39,242 bases of DNA, from contig JAIOHL010000029.1 in NCBI GenBank assembly GCA_019913005.1, positions 1 through 39,242 of the forward strand, read 5' to 3'. Each line of letters starts with the position of its first letter. Positions within the stretch are counted from its first letter, which is position 1. The notes beneath the pieces are model-generated. The model saw only the letters and a list, made by a program, of their open reading frames with translations. It did not search any database and was not told the origin of the DNA. Below, in pieces: positions 12,438-33,789 of this stretch. Position numbers and translations under genes: made by a program. The stretch is from Anaerolineae bacterium (GTDB lineage: Bacteria; Chloroflexota; Anaerolineae; Aggregatilineales; J027).

Positions 12438-12478
12438 TTAGACGATGTATGAATCGTAATTTTGGAGAGACACCCCTC

Positions 12479-13156
12479 ATGTCCGAACACATTTTGGTGA
12501 TTGAAGACGAAACAAATATTGCCCAATTTTTGGAGCGTGGCCTCATTTATGAAGGCTTCCGCGTGGATGTCGCCTACGATGGACAAAGCGGCCTCTCGAT
12601 TGCCCGCGACAACCCACCCGATTTGGTCATCCTCGACTGGATGCTGCCGGGTTTGGATGGCTTGGAAGTCTGCCGCCGTTTGCGGACCGCCAGCACTGTA
12701 CCAATTTTGATGCTGACCGCCAAAGATACAGTGCCAGATCGTGTCACGGGCCTTGATGCTGGAGCGGACGATTACCTCGTTAAGCCCTTTGCTTTTGATG
12801 AACTCATGGCGCGTGTCCGGGCTTTGCTTCGTCGCAGCGTGACCATTTCAGGGCCAGAAGTTCTGCGATTCACCGATCTAACGTTAGACACTGGCACTCA
12901 CCGCGCCACTCGTGGCAATCGGCCTATTGATCTAACCGCCAAAGAATATGAACTCCTTGAATTATTCATGCGTAATCCTCGCCAAGTCCTGACCCGCGAT
13001 GTCATTTTTGACCGGGTATGGGGCTACGATTTTGGGGGTGAAAGCAACATCATCGAGGTCTATGTGCGCTATCTTCGCCAAAAAACTGAAGATGAAAATG
13101 AGTCCCGCCTCATTCATACTGTGCGCGGCGTCGGTTACGTCCTCCGCGAGGATTAG
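12479..13156 (+). CDS. OmpR/PhoB-family response regulator
   Basis: 225 residues: a receiver domain (1-118) followed by a winged-helix DNA-binding domain (about 128-225). Receiver residues are present: the acidic pocket in VIEDE (Glu 9, Asp 10, Glu 11), phospho-acceptor Asp 53 in VILDWMLPG, Thr 80 in MLTAKD and Lys 102 in LVKPF. The effector domain has the family's [20 protein letters not shown] and [12 protein letters not shown] segments. The ATG at 12479 is chosen for its position behind GGAGAGA; an ATG at 12449 lacks an upstream site. The histidine kinase follows 81 bp later. OmpR-type dimers bind direct repeats of about 11 bp, which occur before the next gene but one. Confidence 0.95.
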
Positions 13157-13237
13157 CAGCAGTATAAGTCGGCTCTCATCCCAAGCTAACATTCCCATGT
13201 TACTATCGTTGCAATCGTCGCCATTGGATTGCAACTG

Positions 13238-14722
13238 ATGACCATTCGCCAGCGCCTGACCCTGTGGTATTCCAGCCTACTGATCAGCCTTATCACGATC
13301 TTTGCAATCGTGGCGTTTGGCATTCTTGATCGCACCATGCGTTCACAAGTGGATAATAATTTACTTAGGGTCATTGACCGCGTGGAAGATTGGACTGTCC
13401 ACGAGGCCCTTCGTACCGATTCAACGACAGGCGAAGTGTTTTACACCATGTCCCCCAATCTGGAAACCATTGCCCCGGCGGATGTCTATCTACAAATTTG
13501 GTCAGTGGATGAGTCTAAATATCCATTTAGCCAAAGCCCCAATCTCGCCTCGCACCATGCTCCGCTTGACCCCAATGGAATGCAGTCGCACGAAGTCCGA
13601 GCCATTGTCAATGGAAACGATTCACGGCTGCGTGTTATCTCAAGGCCGATTGTCTTTGAGGGCAAAATAGTCGGTTATATCCAAGCCGCCTCTACGATGG
13701 AAACGGTGGATTCAGCAACCACGTGGCTCATTAAAATTTTGGCGCTAGAAATCTTGGTCGCGCTTATTTTGTCATTGGTGATTGGCAATTGGCTGGCACG
13801 GCGGGCGCTCCATCCCATTAGCAACGTCACGCGCACCGCCACTCAAATTTCTACCGAAAACGACCTCAGCAAGCGCATCCCCTACGATGGCCCACAGGAC
13901 GAAATGGGTGAATTGATTACGACCTTTAATCATATGGTCGAACGTTTGGAAACTCTTTTTAATACCGAGCGGCGCTTTGTAGCAGATGTTTCCCATGAAT
14001 TGCGTACCCCCATCACCGCCATACAGGGCAACGTAGAACTTTTGCAGCGCTTTGGGCACGACCCAGCCTCGCTCAAGGCCATCCACAGCGAAACCCAGCG
14101 TATGTCCCGTTTGGTCGGCGACTTATTGATGTTGGCCCAAGCCGATGTCGGGCATATGCCATTGATTCAAACCCATGTCCTATTAGATTCGCTTTTGTTA
14201 GAGGTCTACAGTCAAGCAAAAGTGTTGAGCAAAGGCCATGTCCGCGTCATGGTCAGCGAACTCGACCAAATCCGCGTCTTGGGTGATCCTGACCGACTCA
14301 AACAACTTTTGATGAATCTCATCACCAACGCGCTGGCCCATACGCCAGAAAATGGTGAGATTCGGCTAACCATGCAAAAAGCCGAAAAATGGGTCGAAAT
14401 TAGTGTTACGGATACCGGAGTTGGCATCTCCCCCGAAGACCTACCCCACATTTTTGACCGATTTTATCGTGTGGATAAAGCCCGTTCACGGCATGAGGGC
14501 GGAGTTGGGTTGGGATTATCTATCGCCAAATGGATTGCTGAGGCGCATCACGGCACACTTTCCGCTGCCAGCACTGTCGGGGAAGGGACAACCTTTACCC
14601 TGCGCTTGCCCCTTCTGCTAGACCCTGAAAAAATGCGCGAACACCACGCCGAGACCGTCCCCAATTTCCCGGTCATTCGCCTAAGTCGCCACAAATCGGA
14701 TAAATCGGATTCGGCCCCTTAG
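13238..14722 (+). CDS. Membrane sensor histidine kinase
   Basis: 494 residues. Transmembrane helices at about 10-30 and 164-184 enclose an extracytoplasmic sensor domain of about 130 residues, followed by HAMP (185-240), HisKA with phospho-acceptor His 253 in VSHELRTP, and an HATPase domain. The N box (LMNLITNALAHTPENG, about 358-373), G1 (TDTGVGIS), F box (IFDRFYRVD) and G2 (GGVGLGLSIAKW) are all intact, so it should be an active kinase for the regulator upstream. The sensor domain has no recognised fold. The start may be the ATG at 13238 or a TTG three codons earlier. A short basic C-terminal tail follows the catalytic domain. Confidence 0.95.
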   Translation: MTIRQRLTLWYSSLLISLITIFAIVAFGILDRTMRSQVDNNLLRVIDRVEDWTVHEALRTDSTTGEVFYTMSPNLETIAPADVYLQIWSVDESKYPFSQSPNLASHHAPLDPNGMQSHEVRAIVNGNDSRLRVISRPIVFEGKIVGYIQAASTMETVDSATTWLIKILALEILVALILSLVIGNWLARRALHPISNVTRTATQISTENDLSKRIPYDGPQDEMGELITTFNHMVERLETLFNTERRFVADVSHELRTPITAIQGNVELLQRFGHDPASLKAIHSETQRMSRLVGDLLMLAQADVGHMPLIQTHVLLDSLLLEVYSQAKVLSKGHVRVMVSELDQIRVLGDPDRLKQLLMNLITNALAHTPENGEIRLTMQKAEKWVEISVTDTGVGISPEDLPHIFDRFYRVDKARSRHEGGVGLGLSIAKWIAEAHHGTLSAASTVGEGTTFTLRLPLLLDPEKMREHHAETVPNFPVIRLSRHKSDKSDSAP

Positions 14723-28299: not shown

Positions 28300-28806
28300 A
28301 TGTTGGCCGCTGTCTGGTTCGTTCTCAGCGGCATTTTTCTTTCGCGCTCCATATTAATCACACTAGGTCTGCTAAAAGGCCCCGTGCTGCGTGCCTTTGA
28401 AAGATATGGAGATGATGAGGGCGACTATAATAGCCTCCTTTATCTGCTGTTTTGGATGGGCATGTTCTCCGTGATGAGCGGCCTCTGGTTAGCGCGCCTC
28501 TCTCGTAATGTCTTTTTCCCAATGGAGTTTATTGGCGTGATTCTGCTGATCGGGTCGGCATTTGCTTATCGTAAACCGCATATTGTCGAGCGAATCTTTC
28601 ATTATCCGGTTTGGTATTATGAACTTAAAGAGCGCACATCACGTTCCGAACGACGGCGCATTGCGTATATGTGGCTGCACATTTCACGTAAGGGCAAACT
28701 CATTTACAACAGCAGCGACTTCGCCTTCAATCAATGGGCCGATCTCATCATCGTTTCCACGATTTACATTGACAATGACACTGAGGGGCAGGTTGTTTCC
28801 CCTTGA
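28300..28806 (+). CDS. Small integral membrane protein, unknown function
   Basis: 168 residues with three hydrophobic helices (about 1-22, 44-64 and 73-90) and a basic, Arg/Tyr-rich cytoplasmic C-terminal half (KERTSRSERRRIAYMW). GGGAGG precedes the ATG by 7 bp. It lies 42 bp after the YbaK gene. Its last 43 bp overlap the tail of the propeller gene on the other strand. No family recognised. Confidence 0.7.
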   Translation: MLAAVWFVLSGIFLSRSILITLGLLKGPVLRAFERYGDDEGDYNSLLYLLFWMGMFSVMSGLWLARLSRNVFFPMEFIGVILLIGSAFAYRKPHIVERIFHYPVWYYELKERTSRSERRRIAYMWLHISRKGKLIYNSSDFAFNQWADLIIVSTIYIDNDTEGQVVSP

Positions 28807-29939
28807 AAACCGACTGGCGACCACACCGGGGGATTATTATTCATGGTCATTGGCCCAAAGGTCTGCAATTCACCTAATACCGTATCATAGACTTGCAGTT
28901 CATAGGCGGCGCGAAAGGCCACCCAACGCCCATCGGCGGAAAAACGTGGATAATCATGATATTGACTGGCGGGGTCATTGATAAATAACGTTGGGAGGCC
29001 ACCATTGGGCAAAGGCAGTCGCCACAACATATTGCGGGCCTCCCCGCCATAATTTTGAATCGCGGCAATAAGGGCATCTCCGGTTGGCTGCCACACATAA
29101 TCCAAAATGGTGCCAGCCTGCTCATTTACCACAATGATTGATCCTGAACCGTCGGTGGACATCACCATTAATTGATGAAAATTGGGCATAGTCTGATAGA
29201 CAAACGCTATATAAAAATCCGTAGGCGACCAGCGCGGGTTATAGACGGCATTCTCTCCAAAGCTAGTCAAGCGAAATTTGTTCTGTCCATCGGCATTCAC
29301 CACCCATAATTCCGGTTTGCCTTCAATAGCCTCTCCACTAGCGGCTTCGGCTTCGGGGGTGGCCTCAAGCACGGGCTGATTGGAGACGTAGACCAAACGC
29401 TGACCAGCGGATGACCAGCGCGGCTGCGATTCCATACCAGAATTGGAATAAAACTGAGGAGCGCCGCCTTCGGGTGTCACCCATGCGATATGTGATGTGC
29501 GGCTGGGTTCTTGGTCAGGGGGGTCATAATAGCGGATAAGGGTAAAAACAATTTTGCTGCCATCCGGCGACCACTGCGGCTCCCATGCGCGATAGCTGAG
29601 TGCTCCTGTCGGCCCAAGTTCAAGCAGGCGGCGTAAATTGCTGCCATTCAACCGCACGGCATACAAATCACCATAACCGGGCCGTTGTTCCCACGTAAAG
29701 ACGATTTCACAACCATCTGGCGAAAATCCGCCAATGTAATGATTACCGGCCCCAAAGGATAGGCTGCGCTGTTGGCCTGTTGCCAAATCAATAATCAAAA
29801 ATCCATCTTGCGACGGGGTATTGGTGATAATGAGTGGCCCTTGCAGCAATTCTTGGACTGGGGGTTCAGCCGAAACGCCAAAAAGAGGAGTCAATAAAAT
29901 GACGAGCAGGCCGAGAATGCTAAAACGCAGGAGGGGCAT
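28764..29939 (-). CDS. Secreted TolB/WD40-like beta-propeller protein
   Basis: 391 residues with a signal peptide (1-24, ending in FGVSAEP). Propeller repeats carry the TolB-type pattern: FSPDGCEIVFTWE, WSPDGSKIVFTLI, WSSAGQRLVYVSN, WSPTDFYIAFVYQ, WQPTGDALIAAI and FSADGRWVAFRA. No enzyme motif is present. It resembles the lipoprotein encoded at 23920-25470 but lacks the lipobox and the Pro/Thr-rich linker. It follows the kinase-regulator gene by 18 bp in the same direction, so it may be an exported target or partner of that system. The start is ATG 29939 or the GTG just before it. Confidence 0.82.
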   Translation of the reverse strand: MPLLRFSILGLLVILLTPLFGVSAEPPVQELLQGPLIITNTPSQDGFLIIDLATGQQRSLSFGAGNHYIGGFSPDGCEIVFTWEQRPGYGDLYAVRLNGSNLRRLLELGPTGALSYRAWEPQWSPDGSKIVFTLIRYYDPPDQEPSRTSHIAWVTPEGGAPQFYSNSGMESQPRWSSAGQRLVYVSNQPVLEATPEAEAASGEAIEGKPELWVVNADGQNKFRLTSFGENAVYNPRWSPTDFYIAFVYQTMPNFHQLMVMSTDGSGSIIVVNEQAGTILDYVWQPTGDALIAAIQNYGGEARNMLWRLPLPNGGLPTLFINDPASQYHDYPRFSADGRWVAFRAAYELQVYDTVLGELQTFGPMTMNNNPPVWSPVGFQGETTCPSVSLSM

Positions 29940-29957
29940 CACATTCTCGGCATAAAA

Positions 29958-31505
29958 TTAGAATTTATGTAATTCCTCAAGGCTAATCCACCCCGCCCGC
30001 AGCGCCATCAACGCCGCATCGGTTTTGGATTTCACGCCGAGGCGGTCAATAATCGCCATCAAATAACGGGCGACTTCATTTTCCGGCATTCCCAATTGGT
30101 GGGCGACCTCCGGGTTATCATAACCAGCCGCTACACAGGTCAGAATGTCTTTTTCAATAGCATCGAGCGGTGTCTGGGCCGGGCCGCGTTCCAACAAATC
30201 TTGTACCAATCTTTCGGCAACACCATGCCCCAACACCAAATGCCCCAGCATGACATCATGCACCGATTTTTCCAGTTGTTCTTCGGAACTGGCCTTCAAA
30301 ACATAGCCATGTGCCCCGGCGCGTAGAGCCTGCATGATATAGGTGTTTTCATCACGTCCGGTCAGCACCAACACTTTGACATCGGGATAGGCTTGGCGGA
30401 TGCGCGGCAAAATAGCAAGGCCACTTGTGCCCGGCATATTCAAATCCAGCAAAATGACATCCGGCTTGTTTTCACCGATCAAGCGGAAGGCCTCTTCGCC
30501 ATCGGCGGCTTGCCCGACGACAATAAACCCCGGCACATCCTCCAAGAAATAGGCGAGGCTTTGGCGGGTCAAATTATGGTCATCCGCCAGCAAAATTCGC
30601 ACCGTTGGGTCGAACTTATTCAATGGGGTAGTGGCTTTGCGATAGGGCGGGGCTTCTTCCGGTTGGGCCGCTACTGGTTTGGCTGTGGATGGCGTCGGCT
30701 CTTCTTTTAGCACGGCCTCCAGCGCATCCGCCATTTCTTTGGCGGTAGCAAACCGAGCCGCAGGTTTCTTTTCTAATGCCCGCAAAATGGCATTTTCCAA
30801 TGTCACCGGAATCCCCGGCATAATTTGACTGGGAGGAGTAGCAGCTTTCTTGACCTGTTGCAGCAAGATACTGCCAATATCATCGGCATCGAAAGGCAGT
30901 ATCCCCGTAACCAATTCATATAGGACAATCCCGGTGGAATAGAGGTCGGTGCGACGATCCAATGGATGCCCCTGTGCCTGTTCGGGCGACAGATAGGCGG
31001 GTGTCCCAATAACCGTGCCAGCGGCGGTTAGGCGTTTAAATTCTCCATCACTGGGGATCGCCAAGCCGAAATCCATGATCTTGACTTGACCATTAGGCAG
31101 AATGTAAATATTGGCGGGTTTGATGTCGCGGTGAATAAAACCCGTGTTATGGGCGTAATCCAGCGCCAAACAAATCTGCTTGCCAATTTCAGCCACCTGA
31201 CGGGGATCGGCAGGGATTAGATTGTGCAGCGGTTGCCCATTGATGTACTCCACCACCAGATAATGGTATTCGCGGTCTTTATCTACATCAAAAATCGCCA
31301 TAATGCCCGGATGATTCAGTTGGGCAGCCGAGAGCGCCTCACGTTCAAAGCGCTTGCGTGTGGTCTCGTTGACATGTGGCATCAATACTTTGATGGCTAC
31401 AGTACGCTGCAACCGCAAATCTTTGGCGCGATAAACAATGGCGGTTGCGCCTTCCCCCAATAATTCTTCAATTTGATAACGTTCGCCTAATATTCGACCA
31501 ATCAT
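29958..31505 (-). CDS. Hanks-type Ser/Thr kinase fused to a NarL-type response regulator
   Basis: 515 residues. A PknB-like kinase domain (about 8-265) has GEGATAIVY (18-25), catalytic Lys 39 in VAIKV, HRDIKPAN (125-132), DFG (145-147) and SPE (173-175). A Pro/Thr/Ala/Glu linker (269-300) leads to a complete REC receiver (302-425) with Asp 308-309, phospho-acceptor Asp 354, Thr 382 and Lys 404, then a divergent LuxR-type helix-turn-helix (about 447-510). There is no transmembrane helix, so it is cytoplasmic. It could phosphorylate its own linker or REC/HTH, or bring Ser/Thr and His-Asp signalling together on DNA. GAGGA precedes the ATG at 31505. A GAF protein and methyltransferase lie upstream in the same cluster. 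Confidence 0.92.
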   Translation of the reverse strand: MIGRILGERYQIEELLGEGATAIVYRAKDLRLQRTVAIKVLMPHVNETTRKRFEREALSAAQLNHPGIMAIFDVDKDREYHYLVVEYINGQPLHNLIPADPRQVAEIGKQICLALDYAHNTGFIHRDIKPANIYILPNGQVKIMDFGLAIPSDGEFKRLTAAGTVIGTPAYLSPEQAQGHPLDRRTDLYSTGIVLYELVTGILPFDADDIGSILLQQVKKAATPPSQIMPGIPVTLENAILRALEKKPAARFATAKEMADALEAVLKEEPTPSTAKPVAAQPEEAPPYRKATTPLNKFDPTVRILLADDHNLTRQSLAYFLEDVPGFIVVGQAADGEEAFRLIGENKPDVILLDLNMPGTSGLAILPRIRQAYPDVKVLVLTGRDENTYIMQALRAGAHGYVLKASSEEQLEKSVHDVMLGHLVLGHGVAERLVQDLLERGPAQTPLDAIEKDILTCVAAGYDNPEVAHQLGMPENEVARYLMAIIDRLGVKSKTDAALMALRAGWISLEELHKF

Positions 31506-31581
31506 AAAATTCCTCGGCGGCACACCCCGTAAATACTTTTCAAAAGTGTACTGAGTATAAGGTCGCTACGCAAGCGATTGA

Positions 31582-32178
31582 TTAGGTATGGGTCTCAAAT
31601 TTCTTGGCATTATGCAGTGCCAATGCGGATTGGTCGGCAAGACTGGACACCACGTTTAAATGTGCCCGTGAATAGCGCCCGATGGCCCGTTTGCCATCTA
31701 CATATAACAACCCAATCACTTCACCCCTAACCAGCAAAGGGGAACACATGACCGTGCGTAATTGCAATTGTTGAACACTGATATTATTTTTCAGCGACTC
31801 ATCAGTTTGGGCGTCCGGCACTACCACCGCCCCGCCTTTTTCAAGTGTCTTTTCAATCACACCGCTCGAGGGGGTAAAAAGCTCCGCCGGAATATATTGG
31901 TGATTGCTGTCGCGCCCCATCTTATAACGCATCGCCCCGTCATCATCCGTCATCATGAGAAAGGCCCGATCACCATCGGCAAACGCAACCATGCTGTCCA
32001 AGACAAATGTAATCAATTCGCGTGTATCCCGAATATTGTGAATCGTCTTGGTCACTTCCAAGAGCATTTGCAGCGCCAGCAGTTCGTTAATATCCCGGCG
32101 CTCTTCTGTCCACGTTATGGCTTGATGGACTTCTTCCAAAATACGATCCACGTCTTTTAAGCGGTCATCATTTGACAT
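31582..32178 (-). CDS. GAF-domain sensor protein
   Basis: 198 residues. An N-terminal charged helix (1-45) is followed by one GAF domain (about 45-190): TIHNIRDTRELITFVLDSMV, GDRAFLMMTDDDGAM, VVVPDAQTDESLKNNISVQQ, RTVMCSPLLVRGEVIGLLYV and SSLADQSALALHNAKKFE are in family order. It has no output domain, so it must act through partners. GAF domains bind cyclic nucleotides, haem or other small ligands, or sense redox state; Cys in VMCSPL is notable. It starts 4 bp after the methyltransferase stop with GGAGG overlapping that gene's end, and 76 bp before the kinase-regulator gene. Confidence 0.9.
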   Translation of the reverse strand: MSNDDRLKDVDRILEEVHQAITWTEERRDINELLALQMLLEVTKTIHNIRDTRELITFVLDSMVAFADGDRAFLMMTDDDGAMRYKMGRDSNHQYIPAELFTPSSGVIEKTLEKGGAVVVPDAQTDESLKNNISVQQLQLRTVMCSPLLVRGEVIGLLYVDGKRAIGRYSRAHLNVVSSLADQSALALHNAKKFETHT

Positions 32179-32182
32179 GACA

Positions 32183-32812
32183 TTATCCTCCGCGTTTCAT
32201 CCCTCGCGCATATAGGGCCAACCCTACCCCGACACGTTCACGGGTTTCGGTTAGTTGCAGCCCCACTTTTTGGAATAGTTCCGCAATCTGTTTTGGTGAC
32301 CAGCGTACTTTGGCCTCGGCGATTTCACCCCAATGAATAAAATTCTCGCGGGCAAATCCGGTTAAGCCTCGCTCATCGGCCAATGCTGTCGCGCTGGCGA
32401 TGGTCATTTGAGGAGACGGATTTAACATCACGAATGTTCCGCCTGACTTCAGCACTCGAACCATTTCCTGTAAGGCGGATGGTACCTCTTCTAACAAATA
32501 TAGCACGTTGGTCGCGGTCACTACATCAAATTGATTGGTTTGGAACGGCAGTTGATAGACACTACCACAGACAAAAAGGTCCCCAATGGCTTGATAGTCG
32601 AGCGCATGGGCCATCAATAAGGGATCGTCATCCACACCAAACGCCTCGGCTTGATACTGCTCCCGAAACATTTTGACCAATGCCCCCGGCCCAGTCCCCA
32701 CATCCAATACCCGTGACCCGGCTGGTGGAGCGACAAAACGGGCGAAACTTTCTAGAATCGTTGTCCACCCGGTTTGGGTCTGCATCGAAATGTAATATTC
32801 ACCCTGATCCAT
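32183..32812 (-). CDS. Class I SAM-dependent methyltransferase
   Basis: 209 residues. Motif I is RVLDVGTGPGALV at 34-46, then FGVDDDPLLM, FVCGSVYQLPFQTNQFDVVT and VLKSGGTFVMLNPSP, the Methyltransf_11 pattern. Substrate unknown. The start ATG at 32812 overlaps the TGA of the membrane-protein gene (TGATG), with GAGGA just upstream, so translation is probably coupled. It links the membrane protein and the GAF protein in one operon. Confidence 0.88.
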   Translation of the reverse strand: MDQGEYYISMQTQTGWTTILESFARFVAPPAGSRVLDVGTGPGALVKMFREQYQAEAFGVDDDPLLMAHALDYQAIGDLFVCGSVYQLPFQTNQFDVVTATNVLYLLEEVPSALQEMVRVLKSGGTFVMLNPSPQMTIASATALADERGLTGFARENFIHWGEIAEAKVRWSPKQIAELFQKVGLQLTETRERVGVGLALYARGMKRGG

Positions 32813-33789
32813 CAATATTCCTCACGCGCCAACTGGGTGAAGGTCCGAATCCCGATTAACACCGATACCACTGGCAACCAGATCGCCCCAAAAAATACTA
32901 AGAGGCCGAATAAAATCGTGGTCTGAATGGGGTTATCGTTTTCTTGTGGCAGATGATAACCTGCCCAACCCATCAACATAAACGCGATAAGCATATATAT
33001 CCAGCCATAGAGCAGGGGCTGTTGGGGAGGGTTCAAAAACCGCAGCCAATTTTCCTTATGGGTCTGCCGCGTAAACCATAAGATGAGGACAATCATGGTG
33101 ATAATCATGGCTACCAATGCTATCCCAACGCCGGGGATGCTTCCATCCACCAAACGCAGCGCCAACGTAACCCCCAAGATTCCACCTGCCGCTGCCCATT
33201 CATAGGGTTCAAGCAGCCAATCTTGAAACGACATCTTTTTGGGTGGGGGCACCACAAACAATACCAGAAGATTCCCCAATAAGGCGATCACCACCGCAGG
33301 CAGCGCTACATCTAAACTAGGTACAGCCTGTTGGACATGTTCAAGTTCAGGATACCCGCGTACCCAGATACCCCAACCAAGACCCACTAATGCCGCCAAC
33401 CCCACCAGCCATGCCGAGGCGGGGCGGGCCGTGCTCAGATAGAGAAATGAGCCAAACGCCAACAAAAACATGACCGTCTCAAGTCCAGTGCCATAAAACA
33501 CAAGGCTAATCGGCAGATTATCAAATAGCCGGGCTGAGATGAGGGCGCTTTCAGTGAGGCCAAAAATCCCGGCGACCAGCAGCAGACCCAAGACATCTTG
33601 AACATGCCAGCGTACCATCACGTCCAACAAAATCGCCGCCATCGCAAAATAGAGGCCGATAAGCGCTATCCAATCGAAAGCGTCATACTGGCTTGCGTAC
33701 TGCCATGCCACCAGTTCACCAAATACCAGCAGCAAGAGTCCGAAGCCCACGCGGGGAATCCAAGTGAGTAGTCGTTGTCGGTTTAGCAT
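32812..33789 (-). CDS. Polytopic membrane protein, unknown function
   Basis: 325 residues with about nine hydrophobic helices, mostly 20-23 residues long, the first at about 11-30 (VGFGLLLLVFGELVAW). The central loop PPPKKMSFQDWLLEPYEWAA (about 182-201) is its only long hydrophilic piece. I do not recognise the family. It heads the minus-strand cluster with the methyltransferase, GAF and kinase-regulator genes, and could be a membrane sensor. A strong -10 (TATAAT) ends only 7 bp before the ATG, so the mRNA may be leaderless. Confidence 0.8.
   Translation of the reverse strand: MLNRQRLLTWIPRVGFGLLLLVFGELVAWQYASQYDAFDWIALIGLYFAMAAILLDVMVRWHVQDVLGLLLVAGIFGLTESALISARLFDNLPISLVFYGTGLETVMFLLAFGSFLYLSTARPASAWLVGLAALVGLGWGIWVRGYPELEHVQQAVPSLDVALPAVVIALLGNLLVLFVVPPPKKMSFQDWLLEPYEWAAAGGILGVTLALRLVDGSIPGVGIALVAMIITMIVLILWFTRQTHKENWLRFLNPPQQPLLYGWIYMLIAFMLMGWAGYHLPQENDNPIQTTILFGLLVFFGAIWLPVVSVLIGIRTFTQLAREEY

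Follow-up and report, generated by a model that had tools for sequence, protein, structure and literature searches.

The subject of this analysis is a gene that joins two kinds of signalling in one chain. It lies on a stretch of 39,242 nucleotides from an Anaerolineae bacterium of the order Aggregatilineales (GenBank assembly GCA_019913005.1, contig JAIOHL010000029.1, positions 1 to 39,242), called the window below, and encodes a Hanks-type Ser/Thr kinase, a receiver (REC) domain and a LuxR-type helix-turn-helix (HTH) domain, in that order (Table 1). An earlier note on the window had described such a chain of 515 residues, and the open reading frame (ORF), the Pfam matches and the residue checks confirm it: the protein matches Pkinase (3.1e-47), Response_reg (1.4e-29) and GerE (2.9e-8), each above the curated cut-off. 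The ORF (29958-31523, reverse strand) gives 521 aa with a GTG start 18 bases upstream of the ATG at 31505; M-[IL]-G stands at the position of that ATG in all 20 relatives compared. Because the protein has no transmembrane-like stretch (the highest 19-residue Kyte-Doolittle mean is 1.1) and no PASTA match in a Pfam scan at E 0.001, it is taken to be soluble, and it lacks the transmembrane segment and extracellular PASTA repeats of PknB/PASTA receptor kinases. Nor does Pfam find an AAA/NB-ARC and TPR middle region in it. Its own genome has 52 Pkinase matches (51 above the cut-off); among the 150 candidates scored out of 177, no other open frame there combines a kinase match with a receiver match, judging by coordinates. 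The two signalling types also stand side by side at C21:141124-143201 of that genome, where an open frame for a kinase of 1690 aa is directly preceded by a receiver match that shares its strand but not its frame.

Table 1. Features of the fusion gene and its surroundings in the window (pLDDT, predicted local distance difference test; SAM, S-adenosylmethionine).
Feature	Residues	Position	Strand	Basis or remark
Kinase-REC-HTH fusion gene	515 aa	29958..31505	(-)	length counted from ATG at 31505
Hanks-type Ser/Thr kinase domain	10-253	30747..31478	(-)	Pfam; residue counts
Variable linker	271-300	30606..30695	(-)	block pLDDT 28-37; 0 of 30 columns at 90%
NarL-type receiver domain	304-415	30261..30596	(-)	Pfam; closest solved chains NarL, VraR, DevR
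LuxR/GerE-like HTH-derived domain	451-501	30003..30155	(-)	Pfam
Former recognition helix	474-488	30042..30086	(-)	without T-V-K-x-H type motif
Stand-alone GAF protein	198 aa	31582..32178	(-)	Pfam; upstream neighbour, probably outside the kinase system
Class I SAM methyltransferase	210 aa	32183..32815	(-)	Pfam; upstream neighbour
Hydrophobic (membrane) protein	325 aa	32812..33789	(-)	no Pfam match; found with the GAF gene in 16 of 17 genomes
PD40 beta-propeller protein		28764..29942	(-)	Pfam; downstream neighbour, 15 bp from the kinase gene
Histidine kinase, HAMP-HisKA-HATPase		13229-14722		15 kb from the kinase gene; only one found by the window scan
OmpR-type response regulator		12449-13156		followed by the histidine kinase at 13229-14722; ordinary two-component pair

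The fusion is widespread within its order. At a threshold of E 1e-90, with nine candidates scored per genome and counts that are therefore lower bounds, it was found in at least 97 of the 154 genomes of the order, in 54 of the 90 good assemblies and in all five genomes of the genus. Several of these matches are partial; 95 of the 97 genomes yielded a single match, the other two a pair of partial matches each. Some in-order genomes without the fusion hold few kinase or receiver candidates (13-22), others many. The earlier note had called for a search for the architecture across Chloroflexota, and here a draw of 400 genomes from the phylum gave at least three matches: the window's own genome, one of the same order and Candidatus Chlorohelix (threshold E 1e-95, three candidates scored per genome, again lower bounds at which weaker independent fusions would escape). 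The fusion is thus no peculiarity of a single genome, and the one match of this draw from outside the order is a separate fusion. Twenty of 44 loci drawn from the genome collection belong to the family, all of them metagenome-assembled genomes of Chloroflexota. At one locus (G439 C66:3742-5266) the kinase-REC gene is split into two matches that overlap (1-247 and 243-512), a frameshift or an assembly error.

Conservation was read from 94 loci, which gave 71 distinct proteins, with sequences fetched from some but not every one of the 97 matching genomes. One fragment that ends at a contig edge (L016/L073, the only protein below 480 aa) was dropped, leaving 70 full-length proteins: 69 from the order and that of Chlorohelix. 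The Hanks catalytic set is complete, with the glycine loop, VAIK Lys, helix-C Glu, HRD Asp, Asn, DFG-type Asp and APE-type Glu each present in 70 of 70. Kinase columns 17, 19, 39, 56, 125-127, 129, 132, 145, 147, 160, 168 and 175 are invariant, and K39, E56, D127, N132, D145, T160 and T168 are identical throughout; column 146 varies, so that the DFG-type motif reads DFG in 36 proteins, DLG in 33 and DMG in one. The receiver is equally intact: D308, D309, D354, Y401 and K404 are present in all 70, column 382 is T in 65 and S in five, and columns 389 and 399 vary. The set expected of a NarL/FixJ receiver (two acidic residues, a phospho-acceptor Asp, a Thr or Ser and a Lys) is complete. The window protein itself carries D308, D309, D354, T382, Y401 and K404. 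The description of the protein as an uncommon soluble kinase-REC-HTH chain is thus borne out, with the kinase and receiver residues kept in 69 distinct in-order relatives.

The third domain is different in that its fold is kept while its usual DNA-reading residues are gone. Its GerE score is 33.6 bits against a cut-off of 23.5, and the model has four helices (449-459, 464-471, 475-489 and 494-504) with block pLDDT of 82-90 for residues 451-500; in structure models, then, the LuxR HTH fold persists. In NarL-type regulators the T-V-K/R-x-H/Y type residues of the recognition helix are the DNA contacts, and the last HTH helix is the dimer helix. In the alignment to NarL, I-T-E-S-T-V-K-V-H of NarL stands opposite M-P-E-N-E-V-A-R-Y here. 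None of the 69 in-order proteins has the motif [TS][VIL][KREQ]x[HY]; among the 17 NarL-type regulators that stand alone in the window's own genome, 16 have it, and the exception reads T-A-K-S-H. (These controls are the 17 REC-HTH matches in that genome: 11 without internal stops, all with the motif, and six with stops, five of them with it.) Column by column, 477 is T in six of the 69, 479 is K or R in one and 481 is H or Y in seven. The charge has changed as well: in 66 of the 69 the recognition helix carries a net negative charge and in no case a positive one, and the mean charge of the whole HTH is -1.55 in the order versus +2.27 in the 11 own-genome regulators. Among three other REC-HTH frames outside the family, that of locus L105 and that of a Rhodococcus fusion have a looser motif, and a Rhodococcus regulator (L133) does not have it. 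The LuxR-type HTH of the earlier note therefore holds for the fold and is only putative for the function, and the note's claim of a DNA-bound protein is weakened.

Variation within the domain is uneven. Of the HTH helices, the recognition helix varies most (column entropy 2.31 bits), and the last helix is the best conserved HTH element (1.26 bits, compared with 1.13 for the kinase and 1.30 for REC), so it is the pairing helix, not the DNA helix, that is conserved. Finite ratios of nonsynonymous to synonymous substitution (dN/dS) lie at 0-0.17 for the HTH, 0-0.11 for REC and 0.02-0.15 for the kinase (HTH and kinase comparable in 12 of 17 pairs); one pair (L074/L075) has 0.57 over the 19-codon recognition stretch. 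Judged by these ratios, purifying selection acts on all three domains. Given that the fold and purifying selection persist while the contact motif is lost, the HTH-derived domain is retained, though probably for something other than the usual reading of DNA.

The explanation that seems best to us is a Ser/Thr kinase gated by its receiver, in which the HTH-derived domain serves dimerisation or docking, a reading whose chances we put at about even. It draws its support from the invariant catalytic and phospho-acceptor residues, the lost HTH motif and the purifying selection; that NarL-type structures, including VraR and DesR, are the best matches of the REC-HTH half also counts for it. In such a protein D354 of the receiver would be phosphorylated by a histidine kinase encoded elsewhere or by a small phosphodonor. 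The phosphorylated receiver and the C-terminal domain could then pair two chains, which would bring two kinase domains together for mutual phosphorylation of their activation loops (T160 and T168 are invariant), and the activated kinase would phosphorylate Ser/Thr residues of other proteins. The old recognition helix would no longer read DNA, and its domain would serve pairing or docking. All these steps of signal flow are inferred, and so are the histidine kinase and the substrates that they call for. As to donors, the window's genome has 18 HisKA_3 histidine kinases, and for four of them (C324:7558, C183:1790, C168:262748 and C313:149, the last at a contig edge) none of the 44 typed receiver matches lies within 3 kb, so orphan donors exist and are candidate donors for D354. 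The earlier note also proposed a "direct transfer between Ser/Thr and Asp" signalling. Hanks kinases use ATP, and REC domains take phosphate from His or small phosphodonors; we know of no chemistry for direct Ser/Thr-to-Asp phosphate transfer in these families, and the claim is not supported.

Several observations weigh against this reading. First, many dS values are saturated, and the HTH ratio exceeds that of the kinase in six of the 12 comparable pairs. Second, conservation of the last helix may serve folding alone, and loss of the motif may leave DNA binding through other residues; a basic residue remains at column 479 in one of 69 proteins and at column 483 in 11 of 70. Third, the full-length model has a predicted template modelling score (pTM) of only 0.52, and domain packing and dimerisation lie outside its reach. 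Fourth, among 118 ORFs that directly flank the kinase gene at 65 in-order loci, only two have HATPase_c, so that His-Asp input is something we infer. (These neighbours are mechanically called ORFs of 100-1000 aa, some perhaps spurious, taken from one or both sides of a locus; the window, L001-L003 and Chlorohelix were excluded.)

The receiver might instead be a target and not a switch: the kinase, under some other input, would phosphorylate the receiver or the linker in cis, making the protein a phosphate sink or a node of cross-talk from Ser/Thr to two-component signalling. REC domains are known to be phosphorylated on Ser/Thr in trans (PMC4601284), and at REC column 405 a T or S stands in 64 of the 69 in-order proteins. 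A mere substrate would have no need of the invariant Asp-phosphorylation set, however, and the linker is variable, without one of its 30 columns at 90%; we consider this unlikely.

A true transcription factor, in which REC domains pair on phosphorylation to bind DNA and the kinase adjusts this binding by acting on its own regulator or on others, would fit the GerE match above cut-off and the retained fold, and has in-trans precedents in Stk1-VraR and PknH-DosR (PMC4601284). It may well hold in Chlorohelix, where the helix reads T-V-R-N-Q with a charge of +2, failing the strict motif by one residue (Q for H/Y), and the GerE score is 52.4 bits versus 33.6 for the window protein. For the order, the complete absence of the motif, the negative recognition helix and an HTH without any Ser/Thr column conserved at 90% or more, unlike a DosR-type site, make it decidedly improbable. 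As for the HTH-derived domain being a passive relic, leftover regulator parts on an ordinary Hanks kinase, the lost motif and the variability of the recognition helix would agree with it. Yet HTH and REC have dN/dS of the same order as the kinase, the REC residues are invariant across the order, and the only protein below 480 aa ends at a contig edge; decay is thus disfavoured, with caution over saturated dS values, and we regard the relic as very improbable.

No histidine kinase gene adjoins the fusion gene of the window, and the only one that the window scan found belongs to an ordinary two-component pair 15 kb away; REC input probably comes from elsewhere, as the earlier note had allowed. 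The same note saw in the adjacent GAF protein, which has no output domain, a natural sensor for the kinase. Orthologues of the GAF protein were found in 17 of the 154 in-order genomes (threshold E 1e-35, 21 candidates scored per genome, lower bounds), compared with 97 of 154 for the fusion, and 81 of the 97 fusion-bearing genomes have no GAF match at that threshold. The GAF gene stands beside the kinase gene in seven of the 17; at the other ten loci, neither a kinase nor a methyltransferase match was found within stretches of 4.7-11 kb. The gene for the 325-aa protein adjoins it in five of the 17 and lies one gene apart in 11, the contig ending first in the seventeenth. With the gene for the 325-aa protein next to it or one gene off in 16 of 17 genomes, and the kinase gene beside it in only seven, the GAF gene is to be grouped with the membrane protein, not with the kinase. 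That the GAF protein is a dedicated sensor, in one signalling operon with kinase and methyltransferase, is for these reasons most improbable, even though the genes share a strand with a gap of 76 bp and the arrangement is kept at seven loci in one family of the order. The GAF and 325-aa proteins (31582-33789 in the window; also L166-L169 and L171-L175) are perhaps a separate two-part system.

The in-order family is a single clade in both trees built, each with 22 family members: in the kinase tree (100/100, 23 rows together) and in the REC-HTH tree (96/99). In the kinase tree L026 is present twice, as family member and as outsider, which accounts for the two changes that the family shows there. 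The Candidatus Chlorohelix protein (WP_341472197.1, locus L047, on a plasmid) has the same three domains in identical order. It is unplaced in the kinase tree; its REC-HTH half clusters with one of the stand-alone regulators encoded in the window's genome (support 100/99, identity 56%) and is only 31-35% identical to the in-order family. A single ancestral fusion that includes Chlorohelix is rejected on the REC-HTH tree, and so on one half of the protein. Since this half groups outside the in-order family, kinase-REC-HTH chains appear to have arisen more than once: in the window's order, in Chlorohelix and probably a third time in Rhodococcus koreensis, whose 502-aa plasmid protein WP_241031924.1 (L131) matches Pkinase, Response_reg and GerE, is remote in sequence (31%, with 97% of the query covered) and falls outside the family clade in both trees. 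Put together, the family would consist of order-wide, vertically inherited response regulators with a Hanks Ser/Thr kinase as output, their LuxR HTH recast for dimerisation or docking under purifying selection, in an architecture that evolved at least twice (the order and Chlorohelix, with Rhodococcus probably a third) and whose DNA contacts are largely kept in Chlorohelix and lost here. We hold this fuller account tentatively, at slightly less than an even chance.

Among known systems, the NarL/FixJ regulators (NarL 1a04, VraR 4gvp, DevR/DosR 3c3w, DesR 4ldz) share the fold and the phosphorylation residues. The REC-HTH half aligns to NarL over residues 11-209 of 224 (E 1.7e-28), and its model matches the VraR fold with Z 23.3 over 193 residues at a root-mean-square deviation of 6.7; in the fold search only residues 9-142 of the model are covered by at least one fifth of the rows, so that the search says little on the HTH alone. 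The in-order fusion differs in its front kinase domain and in the loss of the recognition-helix motif in all 69 proteins. The usual, not universal, habit of a neighbouring cognate histidine kinase is absent at the window gene and present in Chlorohelix: there (NZ_CP128402.1, 1804-5922) a 1373-aa histidine kinase with PD40 repeats, HisKA_3 and HATPase_c lies directly upstream of the fusion. A protein of Actinomycetota (L132), which we take to be PknK-like, likewise has a Hanks kinase at its N end and a LuxR HTH at its C end, but with an ATPase/TPR middle and no receiver match. In PMC3466318, PKc is listed alongside LuxR. In Stk1-VraR and PknH-DosR, Ser/Thr kinases act in trans on NarL-type regulators (VraR T106/T119/T175/T178; DosR T198/T205; PMC4601284). 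The same two kinds of signalling meet there on the same type of regulator, but in two proteins and not in one chain, and in the HTH of the in-order fusion no Ser/Thr column reaches 90%.

Taken singly, each half of the protein is ordinary, and the literature already knows NarL-type regulators that Ser/Thr kinases control in trans (PMC4601284); the fused family is interesting and testable, yet not categorically new. The cross-talk examples cited here from PMC4601284 involve two separate proteins, and a single conserved chain makes the direction of signalling testable with one purified protein. The series of fusions is also a natural record of a DNA-binding output domain turned to other use. Such fusions are easily overlooked, and one survey of two-component proteins reports that it discarded those annotated otherwise, Ser/Thr kinases being frequent among them (PMC4558063). 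The earlier note held that its interpretation would fall if the protein proved widespread and well described, or its REC/HTH part a degenerate remnant. The protein is widespread in its order and its HTH motif is degenerate, but no published description of the in-order family was found in a literature search judged by titles, openings of abstracts and passages, without subscription journals or preprints, and the domain is conserved as a domain. What survives of that interpretation is the soluble fusion, its conserved parts and a REC input that probably comes from elsewhere; DNA binding, the GAF sensor and direct transfer are not supported.

A conserved operon around the kinase gene was looked for and rejected for the order as a whole, the neighbours differing between its families. 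At L017 a histidine kinase gene adjoins the kinase gene in line, at L092 (7979-10195) a 739-aa multi-PAS histidine kinase is divergent from the kinase-REC gene; these two loci speak for a receiver-gated kinase. More histidine kinase frames lie some genes away at other loci. The 118 neighbour ORFs also include four with GAF, seven with TIR_2 and eight with GNAT. TIR_2 proteins adjoin the kinase at several loci (for example L105 5914-6507 and L026 7941-9383), and GNAT acetyltransferase genes recur near it in one family of the order, as do, named by reading of the sequences and not by family search, PadR, WD40-like and penicillin-binding-type genes at loci of the order. Directly downstream and in line at seven loci from three families of the order lies a gene of a family of about 200 aa (cluster c3; for example L010 9561-10181, L005 9566-10141 and L013 2774-3385), with no Pfam match in the two members scanned. 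Finally, a PD40 protein follows the kinase gene of the window, and the histidine kinase of Chlorohelix also has PD40 repeats, perhaps by chance.

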